The notes below the pieces were generated by a model. It made no database searches and had not been told where the DNA came from. It saw only the letters and a list, made by a program, of their open reading frames with translations. DNA of 64,000 bases from the NCBI GenBank assembly GCA_036023115.1, contig JAYKKT010000087.1, forward strand, positions 11,147,001 to 11,211,000, written 5' to 3'. The stretch is from Brasenia schreberi. Its lineage: Eukaryota > Streptophyta > Magnoliopsida > Nymphaeales > Cabombaceae. Of the stretch, positions 1,850 to 42,807 are shown piece by piece. The first letter of the stretch is position 1. Every line of letters begins with the position of its first letter. Both the position numbers and the translations under genes were made by a program.

Positions 1850-2153
1850 TGGTACTAGTAAATTCCACCCATGTAAGGATTACCCTTGCATGGCCAGTCT
1901 CAAGTTAGACAAAGGAGGAGGGTTGCGTTAGGTAGCGGACGGTTAGCGTAAAACTTTATCGGGTCTTAAGGGGTGCAACTTTTCAAGCATGAATATACCG
2001 GATCCCATCCAAACTCCAAAGTTAAGTATGCTTAAGCGAGAATAGTACTAGGATGTGTGACCACCTAGGAAGACCTCATATTGCATGCTCTAGCTAACCT
2101 CACTTAGTGTGGGAAAAGGTTTAGGTAATGTAAGATAAATGGTATTAGTAATT
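1850..2153 (+). mobile_element. RTE-ended short element carrying a 5S rRNA-like core
   Basis: A 275-bp insertion (1865-2139) is flanked by imperfect 13-15 bp target duplications (TGGTACTAGTAAATT before, TGGTATTAGTAATT after). Its first about 100 bp match the 5' end of the RTE LINE found at 7376-10540 in this window (CCACCCATGTAAGG, then the GGAGGAGGGTTGCGTTAGG block). Its middle is a 5S rRNA-like sequence (1970-2087). Its last 40 bp match the RTE 3' end (GTGGGAAAAGG motif). It looks like a SINE-type parasite of RTE. The ends and TSDs are seen directly; mobilisation by RTE is inferred. Confidence 0.75.
1970..2087 (+). pseudogene. 5S rRNA-derived sequence
   Basis: About 118 bp, close to the 120-bp length of 5S rRNA, align collinearly with plant 5S rRNA: GGGTGCAAC at the start, CCGGATCCCATC, an A-box-like AGTTAAGTATGC (2020-2031), an intermediate element AGCGAGAATAG and a C-box-like GGATGTGTGACC (2051-2062), ending in CATATTGCATG. 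Substitutions are scattered. It is embedded in a mobile element and is not part of a tandem 5S array, so it is most likely a retrotransposed copy whose internal pol III promoter may serve the element. Confidence 0.8.
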
Positions 2154-2352
2154 GATAAATATTAATATCTCAATGACTAAATCTTAAGAGATGAAACAGG
2201 GGAAAATGATGAAAGTGGTATTGGTATTTCAAAGCACATCTTGACGTATTAAATGCTGATGAGATGTTTCTCCAAGTATAAGAACATATGCTTTAATATG
2301 ATCAGTACTCATTGGAATTAATGCATTAGCTTAGTTGCGTGGAGGTTGTTAT

Positions 2353-2674
2353 TGTTGAAGAATATGAGTTTTAGAGTCAATTTTAGTAAGGTTGATGTCT
2401 TAGGACATTAAATTTGATGTTTTAGGTATTATTGTAATTGTCCGAAGTCGTAAGGGCATTTTGGTATTTTTTTGTACTAGGGGTCATTTTATGTTTTACA
2501 GCTCCTTATATAAGGGCTGATAGGTTGTATTAGGGTTTAAGTTGTTGGGATTAAGAAAGAGAGAGAAAGAGGGGGTGTTCTCCATGGGAGGTCCGCCCCC
2601 TCCTCCGATCTCCAAATTTCCTTTTCGTTGTGTATGATCTTTTTCTTTTTCGTTGTGCAACCACGTTTTCAATA
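2353..2674 (+). repeat. 5' LTR of gene-capturing element
   Basis: It starts TGTTGAAGAATATG and ends TTTTCAATA; the 3' LTR has the canonical TCAACA, so the terminal C has mutated to T. A TATA-like box TATATAA lies at 2507-2513, followed by a purine-rich GAAAGAGAGAGAAAG stretch that may mark the transcript leader. The PBS follows directly. Confidence 0.88.
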
Positions 2675-2686
2675 TGGTATCAGAGT
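2675..2686 (+). promoter_or_regulatory. Primer binding site (tRNA-iMet)
   Basis: TGGTATCAGAGT abuts the 5' LTR. Eleven of twelve bases match the TGGTATCAGAGC typical of plant copia elements. Confidence 0.85.
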
Positions 2687-2828
2687 CAATCTTTCAATAG
2701 CGTCGGAAAGAATCATGATATCGATTGTGGCTAGGGTTCCCAATCCCGAAAAGTGGTGAATTTCTGGTTTTACGGAGATTGTGGGCGTTGATCGATTCGG
2801 TGTCTCTTTTGCCGGATCGGACAGCGTG

Positions 2829-3050
2829 ATCCTGGATGGTAACAAAGATGAGGCTCAAAAGTGCCTGAAGATCGGTCGAGAAGCCCTCGACTTTGGCGAC
2901 CATGCCAGAGCCATCAAATTCATTAACAAGGCTCACCGGTTTGACTCGACCTTGGAAGTTGATGATCTTCTCTCTTCCTGTGCCGCTGATTCTGGTAGTA
3001 ACCGGCCGCCGTCGGATCCCTCTTCCTCCGGCCAGTCCTGGCATCCACCA
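2829..3050 (+). pseudogene. Captured fragment of DnaJ (DNAJB12/14-type) co-chaperone
   Basis: The translation DGNKDEAQKCLKIGREAL followed by DHARAIKFINKAHR and DDLLSS matches the conserved N-terminus that precedes the J domain in plant DNAJB12/14-like ER-membrane co-chaperones. The expected initiator ATG is CTG here, so the native start is lost. The J domain itself is absent. The frame opens upstream at 2781 in what may be the donor gene's 5' UTR. It joins VDAC-like sequence at about 3045-3050. This is a passenger in the LTR element and not a functional gene. Confidence 0.75.
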
Positions 3051-3272
3051 TCGAAGGCGAAGGATCTGCTAACGAAGGACTATTGCTATGACCAGAAGTT
3101 CGCAATCTCGTCGAATACTACTATCTGCTAACGAAGGTCTCGGCCTCACCTCAATCGCAGCGAAAAAGGGAGGTCTGTCTTCCGGTGAGATTTCTACTGT
3201 GTTCAAGCATAAGAAGAGCACTATTGATGTCAAAGTGGACACAAAATCCAATATTTTCACAACCATCACCTG
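3050..3272 (+). pseudogene. Captured fragment of mitochondrial porin (VDAC)
   Basis: AKDLLTKDYCYDQKF, then, after a frameshift near 3105-3130, LGLTSIAAKKGG, ISTVFKHKKSTIDVKVDT and NIFTTIT match the N-terminal beta-barrel strands of plant VDAC, an outer mitochondrial membrane channel. About 70 residues of an expected 275 or so are present. It follows the DnaJ piece with no visible intron, which suggests transfer through RNA. The frameshift makes it non-functional. Confidence 0.8.
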
Positions 3273-3485
3273 ATCATCCTACCATGACATCTCCTGCTGG
3301 TGGTGGTGGAAATAAGCGTGTGCATCCGATTCCTTATGACCTCCATCATCAAACTAATAGAGTGGTCGAAGAAGTAATTTGCTGAAGGAGACTCGGTGTG
3401 GAGGTGCAACTGAAAGGCCGTGGATTGTTTTTATGTGCCGATTCCACTGAAAGATCTTAAGGCCGTTTCTGATTGAGCATTGGCC
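3273..3485 (+). other. Unassigned segment between captured genes
   Basis: An open frame continues to about 3385 with a Gly-rich run and NKRVHPIPYDLHHQ, which I do not recognise. It could be a further captured exon or untranslated sequence of the neighbouring donors. Confidence 0.3.
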
Positions 3486-3670
3486 ATGGATCCTCATGGA
3501 GGGGAATCTCAGCCTAAACATGTGAAGCATGTCAGTGGACAGGTGTGCTAGATTTGCAGTGATGATATAGGTTTGACACTGGATGGTGAGATCTTTGTTG
3601 CTTGCGATGTATGCTCATTCCCTGTATGTAGGCCTTGCTATGAATATGAGAGGAAGGATGGGAATCAGTC
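3486..3670 (+). pseudogene. Captured cellulose synthase zinc-finger (CesA N-terminus)
   Basis: Starting at an ATG, the translation reads MDPHGGES, then after a stretch SGQVC, a TAG in place of Gln, [32 protein letters not shown] and KDGNQS. This is the RING-type zinc finger at the N-terminus of plant CesA proteins, which mediates dimerisation of synthase subunits. Cys pairs of the first half are kept, but the distal CPQCK part is missing because the sequence switches to PPR-like coding at about 3671. The in-frame stop and truncation make it a dead passenger. Confidence 0.82.
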
Positions 3671-5220
3671 ATTATTAACATGGCATATCAAATGTTCGAT
3701 GAAATGCCTCATAGAGATACAGTTTCTTGGAACACCTTGATTTCGGGATGCTGCTGTAGGAGACACCAAGAGCACGCTGGATTTGTTTTATGTGATGTTT
3801 CAAGGGAGAATTGCGATGGATAGTTTCACTTTCTAAGGAGCAATCAGTGCTTGTTCAACTGTGTTGCAGGTTTGGAGTCGGCATACTTTGGTGATCCATG
3901 GGGTGTTTGTTTCATGTGTGTCGATTAACAACACACTGCTTACAGTTTACAGTAATCATGGTTGTTTGGACGACTCAAAGAGGGTATTTGAATTGACGCA
4001 AACAAAAGACGGGGTGTCTTTGAATGCCATGATTGTGGCTTATGGGCAACACAAACATGGTACAGAAGCTTTCAAGTTGTATCAACAAATGGTTCATGAT
4101 GAGTGGGTTGTTGATATGTATTTCTTGGCCTATCTTTTGATTGCATTTACAAGCTTGGCGGATCTTTCAGGAGGAAACAGTTCCATGCACGACTGATCAG
4201 AGGTGGTTATGAAAGCAATTCTCATATTGGTAGTGGGTTAGTTGATTTCTATTCAAAATGTGGATGCATATCTGATGTTGTTCGTGTGTTTAAGATGATT
4301 CCTGAACCGAACTTAGTTCTTTGGAATACTATAATTTCAGCATTTTCGATGAATGAGAGATCAGAAGATTCTATGATCTGTTTTGGCGCATTGCAGAGAG
4401 AAGGGTTGCAGCATGATGACTGCAGTTTTGTGTGTGTAATCAATTCTTGTGGAGAATTATCTGTTCCATTGCATGGTAAACAAATCCATTCGATGGTGGT
4501 GAGATCAGACTTTGTGGATCATATATCTATGAACAATGCTTTGATCACCATGTATTCAAAGTGCAGAAATTTCAAAGATGCTCTCTGCGCTTTCGATAGA
4601 ATGCATCAGCATAACACTATCTCATGTCATGCCATGATAGGTGGCTATGCACCGCATAGCCATGGGTTCGAAGCTCTTGAATTGTTTGAGGAGATGCTGA
4701 AAGCTGGGATTGAACCTACTGGTGTAACATTCATCTCTGTTCTATCTATTTGTGGGTTCACAGGGAAGGTTGAAGAAGGAATGATATACTAAGTCAATGA
4801 GCAAAGAGTATGGAATTGAGCCATCTGCTGAACACTACTCCTGTATGGTAGATCTTCTTTTGCCGAGCCGGTCAACTAGATGAAGTTGAGAGGCTCAACA
4901 ACTCGATGCCATTCAAACCAAGTGCCATAAGTTGGGGTGCTTTGCTTGGTGAGTGCAGAATCCACAAAAACATAGAGCTTGGGCAAAGAGTAGCAAGTGA
5001 ACTTTTCAGGATGGAACCGCACAATGTATCACTGTATGTAATGCTGTCAAACATGTATGCAGACTGGAAGATGGAACGAGGCTGCCTCTGATGAAAAGCC
5101 GAGGTGTGAAGAAATCACCGGGGTTTAGTTGGATAGAGATAAAGAAAAAGGTTCATAGGTTTCATTGTTTCAAGGGGGTAAATGCTTATGAGGGATTACT
5201 AGTGAATGCAACTGCTGTTC
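3671..5220 (+). pseudogene. Captured PPR gene (PLS class, At3g49710-like)
   Basis: About 1.5 kb encodes a broken pentatricopeptide-repeat protein: [20 protein letters not shown], then VSLNAMIVAYGQHKHG, DLSGG, EPNLVLWNTIISAF, DCSFVCVINSCGEL, GKQIHSMVVRSD, NALITMYSKC and a C-terminal region ending in KSRGVKKSPGFSWIEIKKKV. The order matches Arabidopsis At3g49710-type PLS proteins with a C-terminal E domain; these act in organellar RNA processing. At least four frame breaks or stops are present (near 3833, 4195, 4790 and 5090). PPR genes usually lack introns, so absence of introns says nothing about how it was copied. Confidence 0.82.
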
Positions 5221-5501
5221 AACGGTTGAAATTTGCTTCTTATATCATACATCCACAAATCTAAGAGAGATGTTTACTTGCATATCAAGTGTTTGCAGAA
5301 ATGCTCAAAAAGAAATGTTTACCTGAGCATCAAGTGTTTGAAGAAATGTTTAAGAGAGATGAAAAATTCAGGAAAAGAGTAAAGAAGAGATTAGTACGTG
5401 ATGATTGTCTCCATTGGAAAAACAACCTGAAGGAAGTTTATAGAAAAGAACTTTTTTTGGAAGTTTATAGAAAAGATTTTTTTTTTTTATATGTAGCCAA
5501 A
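5221..5501 (+). other. Low-complexity linker in LTR element
   Basis: This stretch contains short internal duplications (for example AAATGTTTAAGAGAGATG-like blocks near 5265 and 5345, and TTTATAGAAAAGA near 5438 and 5464). No protein is recognised. Confidence 0.35.
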
Positions 5502-5880
5502 GATGCTGCTTGAGGTAATTAGCTAGGAAGGCTAAGTTTATATTGCAGTTAAAGATGCTGCTTGAGATGATTAGCCAGGAAGGCTGAGTTGATGTTGCAG
5601 CTAGAGATGCTGCTTAAGATGGTCAACCACGATGGTTGAGTTGATGTTGCAGTCAGAGATGCTGCATAAGATGATAAGCCAGGATGGCTGAATTGATGTT
5701 GCAGCCAGAGATACTGCTTGAGATGGTCAACGAGGATGGTTGAGTTGATGTTGCAGTCAGAGATGCTGCTTGAGATGATTAGCCAGGAAGACTCAGTTGA
5801 TAGTACAGACAGAGATGCTGCTAGAGATGATTAGCCAGGAAGGCTGGGTTGAAGATGTTGCAGACAAAGAAGCTGTTGAA
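5502..5880 (+). repeat. 52-bp minisatellite, about 7 copies
   Basis: Imperfect tandem units of about 52 bp run from AGATGCTGCTTGAGATGATT through AGCCAGGA to GTTGATGTTGCAG. Alternate units read GATTAGCCAGGAAGG or GGTCAACCACGATGG, suggesting growth as a two-unit higher-order repeat. It lies between the captured PPR sequence and the polypurine tract. Confidence 0.85.
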
Positions 5881-6008
5881 GATCAGATCAGTCATGAAGC
5901 CAGATGAAGCATGTTGCACATGAACACTGACGAAGAATGTTGTAGACAAATGAAGAAAGAACCAGTTCTTTTGCAAGTTTGGAGTTCGTAGTATCTCACT
6001 CCCAACTT

Positions 6009-6016
6009 GAGGGGGG
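6009..6016 (+). promoter_or_regulatory. Polypurine tract
   Basis: GAGGGGGG directly abuts the 3' LTR and is the expected plus-strand primer site. Confidence 0.8.
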
Positions 6017-6349
6017 TGTTGAAGAATATGAGTTTTAGAGTCAGTTTTAGTAAGGTTGATGTCTTAGGACAGTAAATTTGATGTTTTAGGTATTATTGTA
6101 ATTGTCTGAAGTCATAAGGGCATTTTGGTAATTTTCTGTACTAGGGGGTATTTTGGTCATTTTACGTTTTACAGCTCCTTATATAAGGGTTGATAGGTTG
6201 TATTAGGGTTTATGTTGCTGTGATTAAGAAAGAGAGAGAAAGAGGGGGGGCGACCTCTATTGGAGGTCCGCCCCCTCCTCCAATCTCCAAATTTCCTTTT
6301 CGTTGTGTATGATCTTTTTCTTTTCCGCTGCGCAACCACTTTTTCAACA
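6017..6349 (+). repeat. 3' LTR of gene-capturing element
   Basis: It begins TGTTGAAGAATATG and ends TTTTTCAACA, followed by the GTTAT target duplication. It differs from the 5' LTR by a couple of dozen substitutions and small indels. Confidence 0.88.
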
Positions 6350-6354
6350 GTTAT

Positions 6355-7140
6355 CTCTTGTTTGCATTACGCTTTTCTGTTGTTTCTTTGGTTTTCTGGT
6401 AGGAAAGCATGGATTTTTATGCCTTGGGAAGATACATATTTATGTATACGATTTAGAGGAGCATCTTAATATAGGTTTGGTACGACATGAAGAGCCATCC
6501 CTCTCCTGCCCAAAAGGTCAAGCCAAAAGATACTCCAAGGTAAAAGGTCACAAGTTTGATGCCTGGGCATGCACGCACAACATCTGGTAGGGTTCTGACG
6601 TCTGCTGATTGATTAACCAGAAGAAGAAATGAATATTTTTTTCAGTTGCCTTTTTGTTTAACTTTGCTATTTTATTTTTTAAATATTTCTTCAAGACCTA
6701 TTCTTCAAATATGTTTTAGTGCATATCTTTCAGACTGTGCTCTAGGGAGAACGGTGCTGCCCATGAAAATGTTGTGCTTCATTCTGTTTTTACTCTTGCA
6801 GTGCAAATGATCTCCAAGCACGTGATAAGTCGTGGTGAACTATTAGGGATAGAGAGACATTTTCTCCTCGTAAAAGTTTGTTGAGTTAACGATGTTTCTT
6901 AGCTTTTAACAAGGTGTCTCTGTCATGTCCATTTGCTGGTTTGGAATGTAAGGGTAGCAAATAACTCATAGAAATGGGTAACAATCATACACTAATGTTC
7001 TGTTCTATTCTGGGTAAGCCTTAAGGTCAAGGTGCAAGCTAAAAGTTAGGTGGCTGATAACTTTGGACTGCGTTGTTTTGAAGATTTGTTTTTCTTTATG
7101 TGCAGCTGCTCTTGCATTTAGAATTTGTTCTTATTACATG
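6355..7140. other. Unassigned non-coding stretch
   Basis: A 95-codon frame (6303-6590) starts inside the LTR and has no recognisable family. The rest is AT-rich. It may be intronic to the gene ending at 11674. Confidence 0.3.
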
Positions 7141-7376
7141 CCGGTTGGTTAAAATGGAGAGGGGCATCTAACTATTCTATGTGATAAGAAGATACCATTG
7201 AAGTTGAAAGATAAATATTATAGAGCAACAGTTAGACCTGTTTTATTTTATGATTTTGAGTGTTGGGTATTTAATCATCAACATGTGCAAAAGATGTCTA
7301 TAGCAGAAATGAAGATATTGAGATGGATGAGCGGTCATACAAGGAAAGACCATATACATAATGTGGTTACAAAACA
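7141..7376 (+). pseudogene. RTE LINE fragment, plus strand
   Basis: The translation YYRATVRPVLFYDFECW, then VQKMSIAEMKILRWMSG, is the C-terminal part of an RTE reverse-transcriptase ORF. It is an inverted, diverged copy of the same segment in the adjacent minus-strand LINE (about 7590-7864). Confidence 0.75.
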
Positions 7377-7554
7377 ACAACAACTAAGCCTTTTCCCATA
7401 CTAGACGAGATTGTGTGCCATGTTAACAGTTAACTCACAATAAGCTAGATCATTCTTTATTGTTTCTTTCCAACACTTTTGTGGTCGTCCTCTACCTCTT
7501 TTAATACTTTCCAAATTTAGTTTTTCTAACCAGGTTCTTGTTTTGATCTTCTTT

Positions 7555-7749
7555 CTATATGTCCAAACCGTCATATTCTCTCATTTTATCCTCTATTGGT
7601 GTCACTCCTAATTTGTTTCTAATAACCTCATTATGTATACAGCCTTTTCTTATATGACCACTCATCCATCTCAACATCTTCATTTCTGTCACAGACATCT
7701 TTTGTACATGTTGATGATTAACTGCCCAACACTCAGAACCATAAAACAT
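7555..7749 (-). pseudogene. RTE ORF C-terminus
   Basis: FYGSECWAVNHQHVQKMSV and MLRWMSGHIRKGCIHNEVI are the conserved C-terminal tail of plant RTE proteins. It is cut from the RT block by frameshifts. Confidence 0.75.
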
Positions 7750-8042
7750 GGCAGGCCTAATTGCTGCTCTATAATATTTACCTATTAACTTTAATGGTAT
7801 CTTCTTATCACAAAGAATACCTTATGCTCCTCTCCATTTTAACCAACCAACATTAATTCTATGCGTAACATCTCCATCAATTCTTCCATCACTCTGAAAA
7901 ATTGACCCTAGGTATTTAACTTTCCTTTTGAGGAATGCAATATGTGCCAATTTTAATTTCCATGTCCTCTGAGGTAACCAAATGATCAAACTTACATTCC
8001 ATATATTCTGTCTTTATTCTACTAAGTCGGAGCCTTTGCTTT

Positions 8043-9109
8043 CTAATGTTTCTCTCCATAGTTCCAATTTCTATTAACTTTTTCCTTAGACTCCTCCACT
8101 AATACAATGTCATCTGCAAATAACATACACCAAGGTACTTCATCTTGAATATGTTTTGTTAACTCATCAATCACCATTATAAATAAGTATAGACTTAAAG
8201 TTGATCCTTGATGTAACCCAATATTAACTTCAAAGAAGTCTGTCATTACTTCATGAGTCCTCACACATGTTTTTGCACCATTATGCATATCTCTTATAAG
8301 GTTAATATATGTCAATGGGATACCTCTTTTTTCCAAAGTTCTCCAAAGAACCTCTCTCGGTACCCTATCATAAAGTTTTTCCAGATCAATAAATATCATG
8401 TGAAGGTCTTTCTTTTTTGCTCTAAAATGTTCCATAAGACGTCTTAAAAGGTGAATCGCTTCAATAGTAGATCTGCCTGGCATGAATCCAAATTGGTTCT
8501 CTGTTGTACTTATACTTGTCTTAACCTACGTTCAGTAATTCTTTCCCATAATTTCATAGTATGGCTCATTAACTTGATACCTCGATAATTTGCACAATTT
8601 TGAATATCTCCCTTGTTCTTATATATGGGTATAAGTGTACTTGCTCTCCATTCCTCGGGCATCTTTTGGTTTTTCCATATTTCATTAAATAGTCTTGTGA
8701 GCCAAGTGATTCCTATTTCTCCTAGTATTTTCCAAACTTCTATAGGAATATTATCTAGTCCTACCAATTTACCGCCCTTCATATGTTTAAGAGCCTCTTT
8801 GACTTCATTCTTTTGAATACGTCAGTAGAAATTGTGGTTTATATACTTTTCTGATTTGGCTAACTCTCCTAAGCTAATACTAACATCTTTATTTTCATTA
8901 AAAAGCTTATAAAAATAGTATTTTCGTCTATTTCTTATATCATCATTTGCCACTAGAATTTTTTCATCCTCGTCCTTGATGCATCTAACATAATTAAGAT
9001 CTTTAGTTTTCTTATCTCTAGCCCTAGCTATCCTAAAAATATCTGTTTCACCCTCTTTTGAGTTGAGTTTTTTTATATAAATCCTCCCAAATTTTAGCTT
9101 TTGCTTCAC
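8043..9109 (-). pseudogene. RTE reverse transcriptase region
   Basis: Three frame-shifted blocks encode reverse transcriptase: 9109-8822 (linker), 8782-8510 (GLDNIPIEVWK, WRASTLIPIYKNKGD, NYRGIKLMSH) and 8483-8043 ([40 protein letters not shown]). Catalytic aspartates are kept, but frames are interrupted. Confidence 0.82.
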
Positions 9110-9162
9110 TCACGACCTTTTTCGCTTCCTTCTTTGCTTTCTTATAAGCCTCTAAAGTTTCA

Positions 9163-10140
9163 CTAGTTTTCTTGTACTACTTCACTCCACCACCAAGCTT
9201 CTTTTTGTGTCGGTACACCTCCCTTAGATACACCTAACACATCTTTCGCCACTTTCCTAATATGTATAGCCATATTATTCCACATATCACAGGGTGTACC
9301 AACATAATTCCAAACATCTCTTTGAAGGACTTTGTGTTTAAATATATCTTCTTTCTCGCTTTTGAGGTTCCACCATTTAGTCCGAATAGCTCGATGCACT
9401 CTTTTCTTCTTTGTCCATTTTTTTATTTGTAAATCCATAACTAAAAGTCGATGTGTGGTTAAGCTTTCTCCTGGAATTACCTTGCAATCTTCACAACACG
9501 TTCTATCTTTTTTTCGACAAATAAAGTAATCAATTTGTGTATGTGATAAGCCACTCTTATAAGTAATTAAATGTTCATCTCGTTTTTTGAAGATTGTATT
9601 GACTATAAAGAGATCAAATGCCATAGCAAAATTTAAAATCTCCCTACCTTCCTCATTTATATCCCCAAAACCAAAGTTTCCATGAATACCTTGATATCCT
9701 AATGCCTCTTTATCAACATGTCCATTTAAGTCTCCTCCTAAACAAATCATCTCCCTTTGTGGAATCTTTTGAATCACCTTATCTAACTCTTCCCAAAATG
9801 TTGTCTTTATACTATCTTCTAGTCCTGCTTGTGCGTAAGTACAAACTATATTCAAAACCTCTGCTCCTAACACTAATTTCAACGTCATGATTCGGTCACC
9901 ATATCGTTGTATGTCTACTACACTATCCTTTAAATCTTTATTTATGGTAATACCAACTCCATTTCAAGCCTTTTCTTTACCTTAGTACCATAATTTAAAA
10001 CTTGTATCCTCTATCTCCTTTGCTTTTTCTCAACCCATTTTGTCTCTTCTAAACATAGAATATGAATCTTTCTCCGAATCATAGTATCTACCACCTCCAT
10101 TAGCTTACCGGATAATGTTTTGATATTCCAATAACCAATA
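9163..10140 (-). pseudogene. RTE endonuclease region
   Basis: An open stretch of 241 codons (9888-9163) contains CLGGDLNGHV, HTQIDYFICRK and THRLLVMDL, the endonuclease core in which the usual SDH/SDHR motif reads THR. The N-terminal part (LSGKLMEVVDTMIRRK, EETKWVEKKQ) continues upstream with stops. It would nick target DNA to prime reverse transcription; this copy is broken. Confidence 0.8.
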
Positions 10141-16270: not shown

Positions 16271-16377
16271 GTGTAAAATAATTGCAAAGGGAAAAAGAAA
16301 AGAAAGAGCTTGCTTTATATTCACAAGACCCCCCTCACTCTTCTCGCTTCTCTATGTTCAACTCTGGCGGCGTAGCA

Positions 16378-19300
16378 ATGGCGTCTTCGTTCCTTCAGTT
16401 CTTCCTCTTCCTCTTTGCTTTAATTGTTTTGGCTCCTTCTCCTTCGTTCTCTCAACCACTCTCGCCAGACGTCCTTCTGCTTATAGAGAAGATTAAGCCT
16501 GCTTTCAACGGCAACAACTCTGAAAACTTCCTTCTTGCTTCGTGGAACGCTTCCGTCCCCCTCTGCCAATGGAGGGGAATAAAGTGGGGCTTCCGGAACG
16601 GCACCACCATTGATTGCGAACACGGGAGTCCCAATTTCTCGATACTCACAAACGCAAACTCCTCCCTCCTTCAAGACCCATCGCTGCAGGTCGTCTCCAT
16701 CTTGCTTCCGGCTGCCGGACTCTCCGGCGAGCTCCCGCGGGAGATAGTGGAGCTATCCTCGCTTCGTTCTCTCTTCCTCGGCATCAATTCCCTCTCCGGC
16801 GGCATCCCTCTCGAGCTCGGCAACAGCCCTGCACTCGCGGAACTTGACCTCTCTGGAAATGCACTCTCCGGCCAGCTCCCGCCCTCTATTTGGAATCTCT
16901 GCGGTCAACTGAGCTCGCTTCGCATCGACGGGAACCGACTTTCAGGTGAAATCCCCCGCCCGGCACTCCCCAATGTCTCCTGCCCGAGTCTCCATGCTCT
17001 CAATCTCGCCGGAAACCATTTTTCCGGCGAATTTCCCGACTTCATCGCCGGATTCACCGCGCTTAAAGACCTAAATCTCGGTGACAATCTCTTCTCTGGG
17101 GAGATTCCTTCTTCTTCTCTTCTCAGAATGCCGACTCTCGTCTCGTTGAACCTCTCCCGCAACAACTTCACCGGAATCATCCCGGGCGAACTGCTATCTC
17201 GATTTGGCGATGATGCCTTCGCCGGGAACCCGGTGGCCTTGGTCGGAAAGTCCGGTCTGTCGCCCGGGGGGGTTGCGGGAGTGGTGATCGCGTCGATGGC
17301 CGGGTTGGTGGTTCTTGGCTCGGTTACGATCGGGTTGTTGCAGAGGAGGAAAAGGAAGAAGGGAGAAGGATGCGAAGAAGAAGAAGAAGACGAAGAGTGG
17401 GGTAGCGGCGAAGGCAAGTTAGTGATCTTCCAGGGCGGCGAGCACCTTACTTCCGACGAGATTCTGAACGCCACAGGTCAGGTGATCGCTAAAACGAGCT
17501 ACGGGACGGTCTACAAGGCGAAGCTCGGCGATGGCAAGGTCATCTCCCTTAGATTGCTCAGAGAAGGGAGTTGCAGAGAAAGAGAATGGTGTCTGCCTCT
17601 TGTGAGAGAGTTGGGGCGCGTTCGCCATGAGAATTTGGTGCCTCTCAGAGCCCTTTATCAAGGGGAGAGGGGAGAGAAGCTGCTTGTACATGATTACTTG
17701 CCACATAAATCACTGCATGATCTTCTTCACGGTGTGTGCGAAAGCCCTTTTTTGTTTTGTTGTTTGCTGTTTGTTTTTAGATTCATGAGGTTGTTTTCTT
17801 TGAGCTATTATATGCGTATTTGATTTTCCGCATGCTTGATTGGAGTTTTTGCAGCGAATGACCAACTTCTTGCTTGGTTCTATGATAGATGTGTTTGTAT
17901 GTGTCTGAGTTATTCTTAACAATCATAGAGAACAGAGGCTGCCGCCTTAGGCTAGTCTTTCACCCTTGCCTAATAAAAGGTTAAGAGATTTTAAAGGCTG
18001 AAACTTAAGACACCTCGAGGGTGTCCTACATGGCAGGAGTTAACGGTTACATCTTTTAGTATCTAACGTTTCTGTCCCTGGTTTAAGATGTTGAATGTGA
18101 TCCAACACCAATAATCTGCAGATCAGAGCAACGAATCTGATTTCAGAAGGACCTATCTTAGTATTGCATTTATTGTACTTATTTTCATGTGAAGGATTTT
18201 ATTGTACTCCTAATATTTCTCCTATTCCATTATTGAGAAGAATAACTCAAGTATTGTTTTACGTTCTTATGCATAGGCAGAAGTGCCGCTGAGATGTGAT
18301 ATCAGTACCTAGTTTGAGTCGGTGAAGAAAGTCTTGACGAGATTCATTAATGCTTTCAACTTTTGTAGTTCGTTCAGCAGATGGTGAATTCCTTTATTAA
18401 ATGCAGCATATCTGTCTCGCCATTGAGATTTTCTTTTTATTTTTAATGTAACAAATAAGAATTTCTTTTGTAATTATCCCTCATTAATTCATCTTTCCAT
18501 GAACTCTTACGATTGGATCGTGCGTTCTTATTGCTTGAGAGAATTCATGTGTTTCTGGTACCGGTTTTAAGTTTTAAGTTTCAAGTCATCTTGTGCTTCC
18601 ACTTGGGTCTGCAGCAACTTTAGTGTGAATTCATGTATGCCGGGGACCACTTTCAACTGGCGATCTTGTGCTTCTATTTTTAGTCTGCCGCAGCTTTAAT
18701 GCTGTCGCCATGGTTTTATTGAATTTAGTATGAACATTGAACTGAGAAAGGCATCAAAAAAGGTGAATATATTTTAGGTTTATATTTGCTTTGATATGTT
18801 TGATCGTAAATTATAGTTTCTAAAGTGCAACATGTTCTTGTATTGCGGTGCATGTTTCTTTTCTGTCTCTTTAAATAATATCCCTGGAGAAAGTTTATAT
18901 CAACCAGAGATTGTCTCTCGGCACAATTATTAGTTTTAATTTGGTGTAATACCCGGTGCAGAAAATAGACGAGGGAAGCCTATGTTAAATTGGGCACGGC
19001 GGCACAAGATCGCACTAGGGATAGCGAGAGGACTTGCTCATCTCCACACAGGACTTGAAACACCGCTCATTCATGGAAATCTGAGATCGAAAAATATCAT
19101 GGTCGATGAATTCTACACTGCTCGCCTGACCGAATTCGGGCTAGACAAGTTAATGGTCCTGGCTGTCACGGAGGAAATGATCTCTATCATGAAAGCTGAA
19201 GGTTACAAGGCACCAGAGTTACAGAGGATGAACAAGTGCAATACAAGAACAGATATCTACAGTTTCGGAATACTCCTACTGGAAATTCTCTTGGGTAAGA

Positions 19301-19602
19301 AACCTGGTAAAGATTCGAGAACTGGTAACTTTACAGACCTACCAGCAATAGTTAAAAGTGCTGTTTTGGAAGAGAACACGATGGAGGTTTTTGATGTCGA
19401 GGTACTGAGAGGGATAAGGAGTCCAATGGAGGATGGTCTGGTTCAGGCGCTGAAGCTCGCAATGGGTTGTTGTGCTCCTGTTGCCTCTGTAAGACCTGAC
19501 ATAGCAGAAGTTGTGAAGCAATTAGAAGAGAACAGGCCTAGAAATAGGTCTGCTTTGTATAGCCCAACAGATACAAGGAGTGAACTGGAGACACCTTACT
19601 GA
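16378..19602 (+). CDS. TMKL1: LRR receptor-like pseudokinase, TMKL1-like
   Basis: Two exons, 16378-17731 and 18962-19602, joined in phase (CAC-G|AA-AAT), give 664 residues; Arabidopsis TMKL1 (At3g24660) is of very similar length. Order: signal peptide (1-25, ending SPSFS), N-terminal LRR cap with WNASVPLCQWRGIKW, LRRs (about 100-285, for example NSLSGGIPLELG), transmembrane helix (about 298-320), acidic juxtamembrane run, kinase-like domain (from about 366). The domain lacks catalytic residues: Lys of the VAIK motif is Arg (SLRLL), HRD reads HGN (about 489-491) and DFG reads EFG (about 508), so it is a pseudokinase that probably scaffolds signalling at the plasma membrane. It ends ENRPRNRSALYSPTD, as in TMKL1. 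The start at 16378 was chosen because the signal peptide follows directly; ATGs at 16282 and 16354 are in frame upstream. Confidence 0.92.
17732..18961 (+). other. Intron of TMKL1-like gene
   Basis: A 1230-bp GT-AG intron (GTGTGTGCG donor, CCCGGTGCAG acceptor) splits the kinase-like domain after LHDLLH. No transposon is recognised inside. Confidence 0.88.
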
Positions 19603-39023: not shown

Positions 39024-39031
39024 CTATATAT
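39024..39031 (+). promoter_or_regulatory. Candidate TATA box of AMT1 gene
   Basis: CTATATAT lies about 107 bp upstream of the AMT1 start codon, with CT-rich pyrimidine patches on either side (39001-39015 and 39091-39107), a common plant core-promoter arrangement. Confidence 0.4.
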
Positions 39032-39137
39032 TGCCCAAAGAATCAAAAGACGAAATACTGATTCCATCTCATTGAGGAATACCAGATTCCTCTCTCTCTC
39101 TCTCTCCCTCTTTTTCTGTGGAGGAAGGTTTGAAACG

Positions 39138-40601
39138 ATGTCTACATGCTCCGCCGCCGACTTGGCCGCCGTTCTCGGCAACCTTACCACCGGCATTAAT
39201 GCCGCCAACGCTACGGATGCTGCGAATTATATTTGCGGTTCCATGGGCAACGACTACAAGGCCACATACTTCGCCGTGAACAACACCTATCTGTTGTTCT
39301 CGGCCTACCTCGTGTTCGCCATGCAACTAGGCTTCGCCATGCTCTGTGCCGGCTCCGTCCGAGCCAAGAACAGCATGAATATCATGTTAACCAACGTGCT
39401 CGATGCCGCGACCGGAGGCCTCTTTTATTACTTGTTCGGTTTTGCATTTGCGTTCGGCTCTCCGAGCAATGGTTTCATCGGTAAGCACTACTTTGGCCTT
39501 AAGGCATTCCCAGATACCGCCTACGATTATAGCTACTTTCTTTATCAATGGGCCTTCGCGATCGCGGCCGCCGGGATTACCAGCGGGTCCATCGCCGAGC
39601 GTACTCAGTTTGTAGCTTATCTCATCTACTCCGCCTTCCTCACGGGGTTTGTTTACCCGGTGGCCTCCCACTGGTTCTGGTCCAATGATGGCTGGGGCAG
39701 TGCATTTCGGACGGGCGACCACCTTTTTGGTACGGGCGTTATCGACTTTGCCGGCTCCGGCGTGGTTCACGTAGTCGGCGGCGTTGCCGGACTCTGGGGT
39801 GCACTCATCGAAGGCCCACGAATCGGACGCTTTGATCACGAGGGACGCTCCGTTAATATGCGCGGACACAGTGCATCCCTCGTTGTTCTTGGCACGTTCA
39901 TTCTCTGGTTTGGGTGGTTCGGATTCAACCCCGGCTCCTTCAACACCATCCTTGTTCCTTATGCCGCCGGTGAGTCCTACGGCCAATGGAGCGCCGTAGG
40001 CCGGACTGCCCTCACCACCACTCTCGCTGGATGCACGGCGGCGCTCACCACGCTTTTCGCCCGGCGGCTTCTTTCCGGCCACTGGAACGTTACGGACGTC
40101 TGCAACGGCCTGCTCGGCGGCTTCGCAGCCATCACCTCTGGCTGCTCCGTCGTTGAGCCATGGGCTGCGATCATCTGCGGCTTCGGCGCGTCGTGGATGC
40201 TGATTGGATGCAATTATCTGGCTGATTTATTGCACTACGACGATCCATTGGAGGCGGCACAGTTGCATGGTGGATGCGGAGCATGGGGACTCATCTTCAC
40301 CGGCCTCTTTGCTTCGCAGAAATACGTGAACGAGGTGTACAACAACAAGCACGATCGGCCGTATGGTTGGTGGGTTGGTGGTGACGGTCGGCTCCTAGCG
40401 GCAAACTTGGTCGAGATATTGACCCTCGCCGGGTGGGTGAGCTTCACAATGGGTCCGCTCTTCTTTCTCCTGCACAAGCTCAACCTACTGAGGGTCAAGC
40501 CTGATGACGAGCTCGAGGGGATGGACAGGACACACCATGGTTGGAAAGAGCCCGAGGACGAGAGTCCAACGAGAAAGGGTGGTTTTATTGAAACTGCTTG
40601 A
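39138..40601 (+). CDS. AMT1-family high-affinity ammonium transporter
   Basis: A single open frame of 487 residues, no intron, as in most plant AMT1 genes. It encodes a plasma-membrane ammonium channel/transporter of the AMT/Mep/Rh family with 11 expected membrane helices. Diagnostic segments: [73 protein letters not shown] and [15 protein letters not shown]. The twin pore histidines correspond to His211 and His377. The C-terminal tail keeps [11 protein letters not shown]; Thr465 aligns with the regulatory Thr460 of Arabidopsis AMT1;1 that shuts the trimer when phosphorylated. The ATG at 39138 was chosen over the upstream in-frame ATG at 39072 because [14 protein letters not shown] matches AMT1 N-termini. 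Confidence 0.96.
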
Positions 40602-42505: not shown

Positions 42506-42807
42506 TGTTGTAATTCATAGGTAGCACATTGGAAGATTAAATATGAGAAATATTAAGAACATTGAAGAGTAAAAAATGGGAGATTGGAAGAGGGGGCAAA
42601 CCTCTAATGGAGGTTGCCCCTCTCTCTTACTCTTTTTCTATTAATCAAACTCTTAACCCTAATATAAAACATCCAATCCTTATATAATGGGTTGTAAAAC
42701 ATAAAATAACTAAAATACCCTTAATACTCCAGGCATTTACAATATACCCAAATATCAGAAATTACAAAACTAACATTAAGACCAGCAAATATGCATATTC
42801 TTCAACA
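42506..42807 (-). repeat. 5' LTR of second gene-capturing element
   Basis: 302 bp with TG...CA ends. It shares with the 2353 LTR the start, TTTTACA followed by CATTATATAAGG-type TATA, TATTAGGGTT, AAGAGAGAGGGGCAACCTCC-like and TCCAATCTCC blocks, but with many differences, so it belongs to a sister subfamily. Flanking ATTTT on the 5' side would be the target duplication; its partner is not found. Confidence 0.8.

Follow-up and report, generated by a model that had tools for sequence, protein, structure and literature searches.

A long terminal repeat (LTR) retrotransposon in the genome of Brasenia schreberi contains fragments of four host genes that are unrelated to one another, and the family to which it belongs consists, very probably, of non-autonomous elements that have repeatedly taken up pieces of spliced host mRNA during reverse transcription. 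The element, structurally complete and itself non-autonomous, occupies positions 2348-6358, target-site duplications (TSDs) included, of a 64,000-nucleotide stretch (hereafter the window) that corresponds to 11147001-11211000 on contig C87 of a genome of 1.055 Gb in 92 contigs; C numbers denote contigs and L numbers loci. A first-pass annotation of the window had proposed an element with TSD GTTAT, LTRs, a primer-binding site (PBS) and a polypurine tract (PPT), carrying DnaJ, VDAC, CesA zinc-finger and PPR fragments in series, in sense orientation and in place of gag-pol. All structural features were located by sequence and BLAST, the four pieces were recovered by DNA matches and Pfam (zf-UDP, PPR and E motif, in sense ORFs), and no gag/pol family was found among eight open reading frames (ORFs) of the window (Pfam, E 0.1). 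The same annotation, which had only the window to go by, called four donors in one 4-kb element unusual; comparison with the relatives shows multi-donor cargo to be common in this family.

Results

Donor genes and missing introns

Capture by the element is borne out by the position of the donors, as the segments are not contiguous in one host locus. The donor or donor-like loci are unlinked and lie on contigs other than that of the element, namely C51, C80 and C66 for DnaJ, C55, C50 and C47 for VDAC, C62 and C49 for CesA, and C82 and C75 for PPR. At the DNA level, positions 2717-3049 are 94% identical to C51:7675273, 90% to C80 and 88% to C66. The C51 locus reads as an intact, intronless dnaJ-49-like protein of 347 residues (DnaJ, E 8.6e-24 in Pfam), whose closest protein is from Nymphaea thermarum (74% identity); the DnaJ ORF of the window element gave no Pfam match because the captured piece lacks the J domain. 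The VDAC piece (3063-3252) is 96% identical to C55, with matching exons also on C50 and C47; taken alone it resembles Porin_3 only weakly (E 0.0033, below cut-off); the spliced donor peptide matches this family strongly (E 1.2e-19). The CesA stretch (3264-3672; zf-UDP, E 7.8e-21) is 95.5-98% identical to C62, with exons also on C49 and exon 1 additionally on C85. For the PPR piece (3689-5238), the best match (94%) is L058, itself a member of the same LTR family. LTR-free matches, with no LTR within 1.5 kb, were found on C75 (L060, 93%) and C82 (L059, 91%); by sequence similarity, these two are candidates for the donor.

The missing introns point to an RNA origin. In the C55 VDAC gene, three introns (about 0.1, 5.1 and 0.1 kb, each bounded by GT...AG) keep the pieces apart, and the element joins the corresponding pieces exactly at the splice sites; the intron between CesA exons 1 and 2, whose splice sites were likewise examined, is absent as well. 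Comparison with the donors, which the annotation had suggested as a check, thus shows introns missing wherever VDAC and CesA could be checked, and the precise absence of all four (three in VDAC, one in CesA) means that these two pieces came from spliced mRNA. In total, 25 donor introns are absent: the four of the window, read at their splice sites, and 21 in L030, L013 and L017, inferred from BLAST blocks that adjoin in the element and are separated in the genome. Furthermore, CesA exon 3 precedes exons 1 and 2 in the element, which implies a jump backwards along the message, or between two messages.

Mobility and extent of the family

Copies with these LTRs are numerous, and one of them, L043 on C64, has the cargo of the window element with its order unchanged and is flanked by a TSD of its own, CTTCA. 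The chimera has therefore moved as a unit. The 3' LTR of L043 is broken by an insert at 5502-6058, which resembles sequence in L066, L023, L045 and L047. TSDs were perfect in six of the seven members read at both ends (GTTAT, CTTCA, GATTT, GCAAG, TGACC and CATGT); that of the seventh, L058, contains one mismatch (CTTGC/CCTGC).

Genome-wide, the pattern of LTR end plus PBS occurred at 232 sites and that of PPT plus LTR start at 68, compared with none for either reversed pattern. An LTR search in which the best 40 of 3,373 first-look candidates were scored, two of them being the window's own LTRs, was accompanied by a tail search in which scoring of the best 40 of 2,173 candidates yielded 80 matched stretches. 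At the thresholds used, the 28 non-window LTR loci with flanks comprised 12 with a 5' LTR and PBS, 12 with a 3' LTR and PPT, and four with neither; L010, L024 and L026 among these four keep the block that precedes the 3' LTR, and L023 looks solo. Relatives have LTRs, PBS and 3' tail in common, and their host fragments mostly differ. In L007, L010, L011, L014, L021, L024-L026 and L050, the 3' LTR is preceded by a second type of tail, in which a common stretch of about 530 bp takes the place of the 52-bp minisatellite.

Cargo across the family

Host Pfam families above cut-off were present in 37 of 67 sense ORFs scanned, window included, a fraction that gives no rate, given that the ORFs were picked for length or a gene-like look, that some of them (a small number) extend into the tail, and that one piece is found in both L013 and L028. 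A gag/pol family was found in none of the 67 (E 0.01; 0.1 for the window ORFs) and in none of 20 antisense ORFs scanned. In the relatives, the sense families included Cullin, PPR, TCP1 chaperonin, Metallophos, Response_reg, RING, PCRF, EMP70, WD40, APH, PIGA, aminotransferase, MMR_HSR1, PfkB, Fibrillarin, GH3, RNase_PH and Rhodanese, and the cargo combinations include chaperonin with PP2A, WD40 with PP1, aminotransferase, PIG-A and fibrillarin. Comparison with the PDB pointed to PP2A in L017, PP1 in L013, aspartate aminotransferase in L061, ureidoglycine aminohydrolase in L068 and fibrillarin in L091, and returned no match for L015. Other ORFs resemble, by eye, golgin, villin, STRAP, PABPN1 and polymerase eta; the villin-like ORFs were without a match.

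A sample blind to cargo consisted of 15 exact LTR-end/PBS sites among those listed of the 232, two of which were earlier loci (L029 and L070) and 13 new, at 0.9 kb each. At least 9 of the 15 contain a host domain. Ten sites were scanned with Pfam, eight of the 13 new ones having been chosen for this after their ORFs were read, and nine of the ten showed a host family above cut-off (that of L087 in antisense), with none in L086. L089, L093, L095, L097 and L098 were read as ORFs; L095 copies L094 at 93% identity, and near the end of L093 lies a frame that looks, by eye, like the zinc finger of a transposon, the surrounding stretch partly matching the flank of L058.

Three loci illustrate how long the chains can be. 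L030 joins 11 blocks of one C32 gene, spread there over 8.6 kb (10 introns absent), to two C58 blocks and then the tail. L013 consists of five blocks of a WD40-like C91 gene, followed by C71, C61 and C71 pieces, a PP1-like gene and the tail, and L017 of three C79 blocks (TCP1), two from C60, one from C50 and four from C37 (PP2A). Four donors in one copy are thus within the family's range. In addition, the PPR piece and tail of the window element recur as a block in L058, L061, L062 and L064, each with different 5' cargo, and one RING piece is followed by PPR in L062 and by the tail in L020. A constant 3' block, variable 5' cargo and recombining modules would be the expected outcome if the enzyme switched templates while making the minus strand. 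Members of a diverged LTR subfamily (L071-L073), examined as possible coding members, also contained host fragments (WD40, GTPase and PPR), and the habit of carrying cargo may predate the split of this subfamily.

Joins between pieces

Eight distinct between-piece joins in the window element, L030, L017 and L013 were measured by exact-match extension only, and four of the eight showed overlaps, of 6, 6, 6 and 4 bases. Under a simple model, the chance of an overlap of at least 6 bases is about 0.002 per join. Such extension gives too much filler where a donor has diverged; at the C71b/PP1 join of L013, for instance, the two BLAST alignments (791-895 and 885-1094) have bases in common. Outside the sample were the window's leader/DnaJ, CesA/PPR and PPR/tail joins, L017 C50/next, L013 WD40/C71a and C61/C71b, and L030 C58/tail. 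On its left, the PPR piece has its boundary in a stretch similar to the family's 45-bp tail repeat, which suggests that the tail may help the enzyme to reach PPR messages; the best PPR match of the tail itself (E 0.0017) is below cut-off and is a hint, at most, that the tail could be a PPR derivative.

Anatomy and surroundings of the window element

The layout is given in Table 1. The four donors of the annotation stand; the stretch 5259-6016 is the family's own 3' tail and not host cargo, and the CesA exons do not follow the order that they have in the gene. Its DnaJ/VDAC junction, estimated at about 3050, is now placed at 3054-3059, and joins are added at 3264-3269, at 3350-3361 and, between PPR and tail, near 5245-5259. 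The element measures 4,001 bp, and other members 1.4-4.7 kb. Its LTRs are 90.3% identical by BLAST, with 23 differences over 326 aligned sites (Kimura two-parameter distance 0.0745), from which it follows that the insertion is not recent. Reading frames are broken, with no single hybrid ORF, and the longest interior stop-to-stop frame, of 225 aa, lies inside PPR. The PBS sequence TGGTATCAGAGTC is the complement of the 3' end of initiator-methionine tRNA. LTR ends and PBS look copia-like; no coding member that would place the family in Ty1/copia was found among the ORFs scanned.

Table 1. Features of the window element (window coordinates) and antisense cargo of three relatives (locus coordinates).
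Feature	Position	Strand	Basis
TSD GTTAT, left	2348-2352	none	sequence
5' LTR, start TGTTGAAG, end CAATA	2353-2674	+	BLAST, LTR search across genome
PBS, TGGTATCAGAG / TGGTATCAGAGTC	2675-2687	+	sequence, LTR-end+PBS pattern
PBS and short leader, ahead of first donor match	2675-2716	+	donor match begins 2717
DnaJ-49-like fragment, 5' untranslated region (UTR) and N-terminal region	2717-3059	+	donor C51:7675273, 94%
DnaJ/VDAC join, 6-base overlap AAGGCG	3054-3059	+	join comparison
VDAC fragment, parts of 4 exons, 3 introns precisely absent	3054-3269	+	donor C55:2941-2947 kb
VDAC/CesA join, 6-base overlap CATCAC	3264-3269	+	join comparison
CesA exon 3 fragment, upstream of exons 1-2	3264-3349	+	donor comparison
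Filler of 12 bases between CesA exons 3 and 1 (4 bases in sister copy)	3350-3361	+	join comparison
CesA exon 1 fragment, 5'UTR and start	3362-3512	+	98% to C62 donor
CesA exon 2 fragment with zinc finger, directly following exon 1, ~0.44 kb intron missing	3513-3672	+	Pfam, donor comparison
Short stretch like the family's 45-bp tail repeat, bordering PPR piece	3673-3707	+	sequence comparison
PPR gene fragment with E motif	3689-5245	+	Pfam, BLAST; common to 4 other sampled members
Family 3' tail, ~45-bp repeats, weakly PPR-like	5259-5490	+	sequence comparison
Family 3' tail, 52-bp minisatellite	5486-5909	+	sequence comparison
Block before 3' LTR, PPT AACTTGAGGGGGG at 6004-6016	5880-6016	+	sequence comparison
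3' LTR	6017-6353	+	BLAST
TSD GTTAT, right	6354-6358	none	sequence
Antisense amino-acid transporter piece	L005:1055-1468	+	
Antisense UBZ zinc finger	L058:573-989	-	
Antisense Erv1/Alr piece	L087:243-449	+	

Elsewhere in the window, a 5S rRNA match (Rfam RF00001, 63.7 bits) at 1971-2089 (+), just upstream of the element, is perhaps a 5S-derived copy. Diverged fragments 75-78% identical to the element's LTRs lie at 42573-42765 (-), and a foldback-like inverted repeat of about 245 bp (84% identity) at 7133-7377 and 7613-7857. Frames at 16282-19602 and 39024-40601 (+) resemble, by eye, a leucine-rich-repeat receptor-like kinase and an ammonium transporter.

Discussion

Donors were spliced, cargo is mostly in sense orientation, the chimera is mobile as a unit, a common 3' block is combined with differing 5' cargo, and many cargoes occur within one LTR family. 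For the repeated uptake of spliced mRNA we propose the following course. The element RNA, running from R/U5-PBS to tail-PPT-U3, would be packaged together with host mRNAs in particles supplied in trans by an autonomous element. The minus strand of an LTR retrotransposon starts at the PBS and then jumps to the 3' end; after this jump it would copy the conserved tail. The enzyme would next slip onto a co-packaged mRNA, copy a few dozen to about a thousand bases and slip again, sometimes by way of a few matching bases, and would finally come back to the element RNA near the PBS, the slips and the return being suggested by the joins. The resulting cDNA would integrate with a 5-bp TSD and be transcribed anew, and further rounds could pass its cargo on, drop it or add to it. 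The nature of the helper, the packaging step and the timing are the parts of this scheme that we infer.

Several observations weigh against uptake of spliced mRNA by template switching. Filler without overlap was found at four of the eight measured joins (4 or 12, 10, 18 and 17 bases), although a measure based on exact matches can make filler look longer than it is when the donor sequence has changed. Host families above cut-off occurred in 2 of the 20 antisense ORFs (Aa_trans in L005 and zf_UBZ in L058), and L087 carries an antisense Evr1_Alr piece; a model of exclusively sense cargo is thereby rejected. Several source loci of L013 and L017, including the three middle sources of L013, were not identified as genes, and no autonomous partner was found among the family ORFs scanned, L071-L073 included. 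On the RNA route, DnaJ, the captured part of which is intronless, and PPR, with its donor unsettled, are uninformative, and a retained intron would show up as a single unbroken block in the alignments, for which the check covered the window. The partly hand-picked sample of ORFs and the unsettled PPR donor slightly reduce our confidence, which nevertheless stays high.

Among alternatives, the one that fares best, though still unlikely, is that separate retrocopies, made for example by a long interspersed nuclear element (LINE), were inserted serially into an LTR element and then carried along. Serial retrocopies would also yield intronless pieces, and sequence that looks LINE-like by eye is found near several copies and in the window at 8043-9963 (-), with endonuclease and reverse transcriptase frames. 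However, the joins printed show no poly-A run but 4-6-base overlaps or short filler (flanking repeats were not searched for systematically), and serial nested insertion alone explains neither the mostly sense orientation nor the exon order 3-1-2.

Somewhat less likely still is a history of few ancient captures, in which the variety among members would come mainly from later shuffling between element RNAs and less from fresh capture. Modules are indeed re-used, such as RING in L020 and L062, cullin in L004 and L016, and an APH piece in L066 and L067, as are starts, with about 185 bases common to L088 and L091 and the first 119 bases of L087 common to L094 and L095. On the other hand, the interiors compared are mostly without mutual match beyond LTR, tail and re-used pieces, and they derive from many different donor loci.

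Read-through transcription past an LTR into neighbouring genes (3' or 5' transduction) is very improbable. Bs1 of maize is classed under transduction in a 2026 review (PMC13317346), but the donors here are on several contigs, and a single read-through cannot join unlinked genes; moreover, 3' transduction would leave host sequence beyond the 3' LTR and not between PBS and tail. Transduction is rejected on the ground of these unlinked donors. Capture at the DNA level with LTRs acquired incidentally is to be given hardly any weight: Pack-MULEs and Helitrons also carry fragments of several genes, but the 25 absent donor introns, the 5-bp TSDs and the LTR, PBS and PPT anatomy are at odds with it, and the missing introns lead us to reject it. 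That the chimera is an assembly error or simply a normal host locus has no evidence in its favour, is equally negligible and is rejected in view of the second copy on C64 with a TSD of its own and the DnaJ, VDAC and CesA donors elsewhere.

Beyond repeated uptake of host mRNA, we lean slightly towards a bolder idea, that cDNA shuffling is the normal cycle of this LTR family. Hundreds of copies would then exist, and in most lineages a series of spliced, mutually unrelated mRNAs peculiar to that lineage would lie on the 5' side of an invariant 3' tail, whose PPR-like repeat would aid slips onto PPR messages. If so, the helper enzyme or the packaging would have to be exceptionally tolerant, and past transcripts would be preserved in the genome as a kind of fossil record through time.

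In the literature consulted, multi-gene shuffling by plant retrotransposons so far rests on few worked examples, namely Bs1 and a few terminal-repeat retrotransposons in miniature (TRIMs). A family with 232 LTR-end/PBS sites, and with different host cDNA pieces in most of the copies sampled, would offer many independent captures with donors still in the genome. It allows direct tests of template switching in a plant, of which mRNAs are packaged and of expression level against capture, and also of whether chimeras feed new genes or silencing RNAs.

How, then, does the family compare with known systems? According to the 2026 review, Bs1 combines three host genes, H+-ATPase, xylan endohydrolase and beta-1,3-glucanase (PMC13317346). 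Like Bs1, the Brasenia elements are LTR retroelements with intron-free fragments of several host genes, introns in the window copy being testable in VDAC and CesA only. Unlike Bs1 as described there, the window copy has four donors and L013 five source loci, cargo differs in most sampled members, and neither a chimeric reading frame nor a gag remnant was found in the ORFs scanned. The soybean TRIM GmaRetroS15, described by Gao and colleagues in 2016, is flanked by a 5-bp TSD and holds sequence from three host genes, 5'UTR and exons without introns, and gene-carrying TRIMs there measure 1,172-1,449 bp and number 30 elements from 7 of 289 subfamilies, most with further copies (PMC4717578). The Brasenia elements resemble GmaRetroS15 in being non-autonomous, with a 5-bp TSD and intron-free pieces of several genes; they differ from those TRIMs in size, the window element at 4,001 bp being no miniature element and other members measuring 1.4-4.7 kb, and in cargo, which changes between copies of a single LTR family.

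Surveys of rice, sorghum and maize counted, per genome, hundreds of host genes inside LTR elements (PMC3726574); the portions consulted describe no single family in which one copy joins several spliced donors. Veju and BARE-2 are presented, in the 2026 review, as template-switch products with proposed switching between unrelated packaged RNAs (PMC13317346). The mechanism proposed here is the same, but those elements gained unknown sequence or another retrotransposon and not chains of host mRNA. Pack-MULEs have terminal inverted repeats. They capture exons and introns according to the soybean report (PMC4717578), whereas the Brasenia elements have direct LTRs, a 5-bp TSD and no introns and thus do not qualify as Pack-MULEs. 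The literature searches, in which coverage of subscription journals was thin, turned up no report of a family whose sampled copies mostly differ in their host chains, which does not prove that none exists. Multi-gene, exon-only capture is already known from Bs1 and GmaRetroS15; what appears to be new, as far as these searches reach, is an LTR family that does so in most sampled copies.

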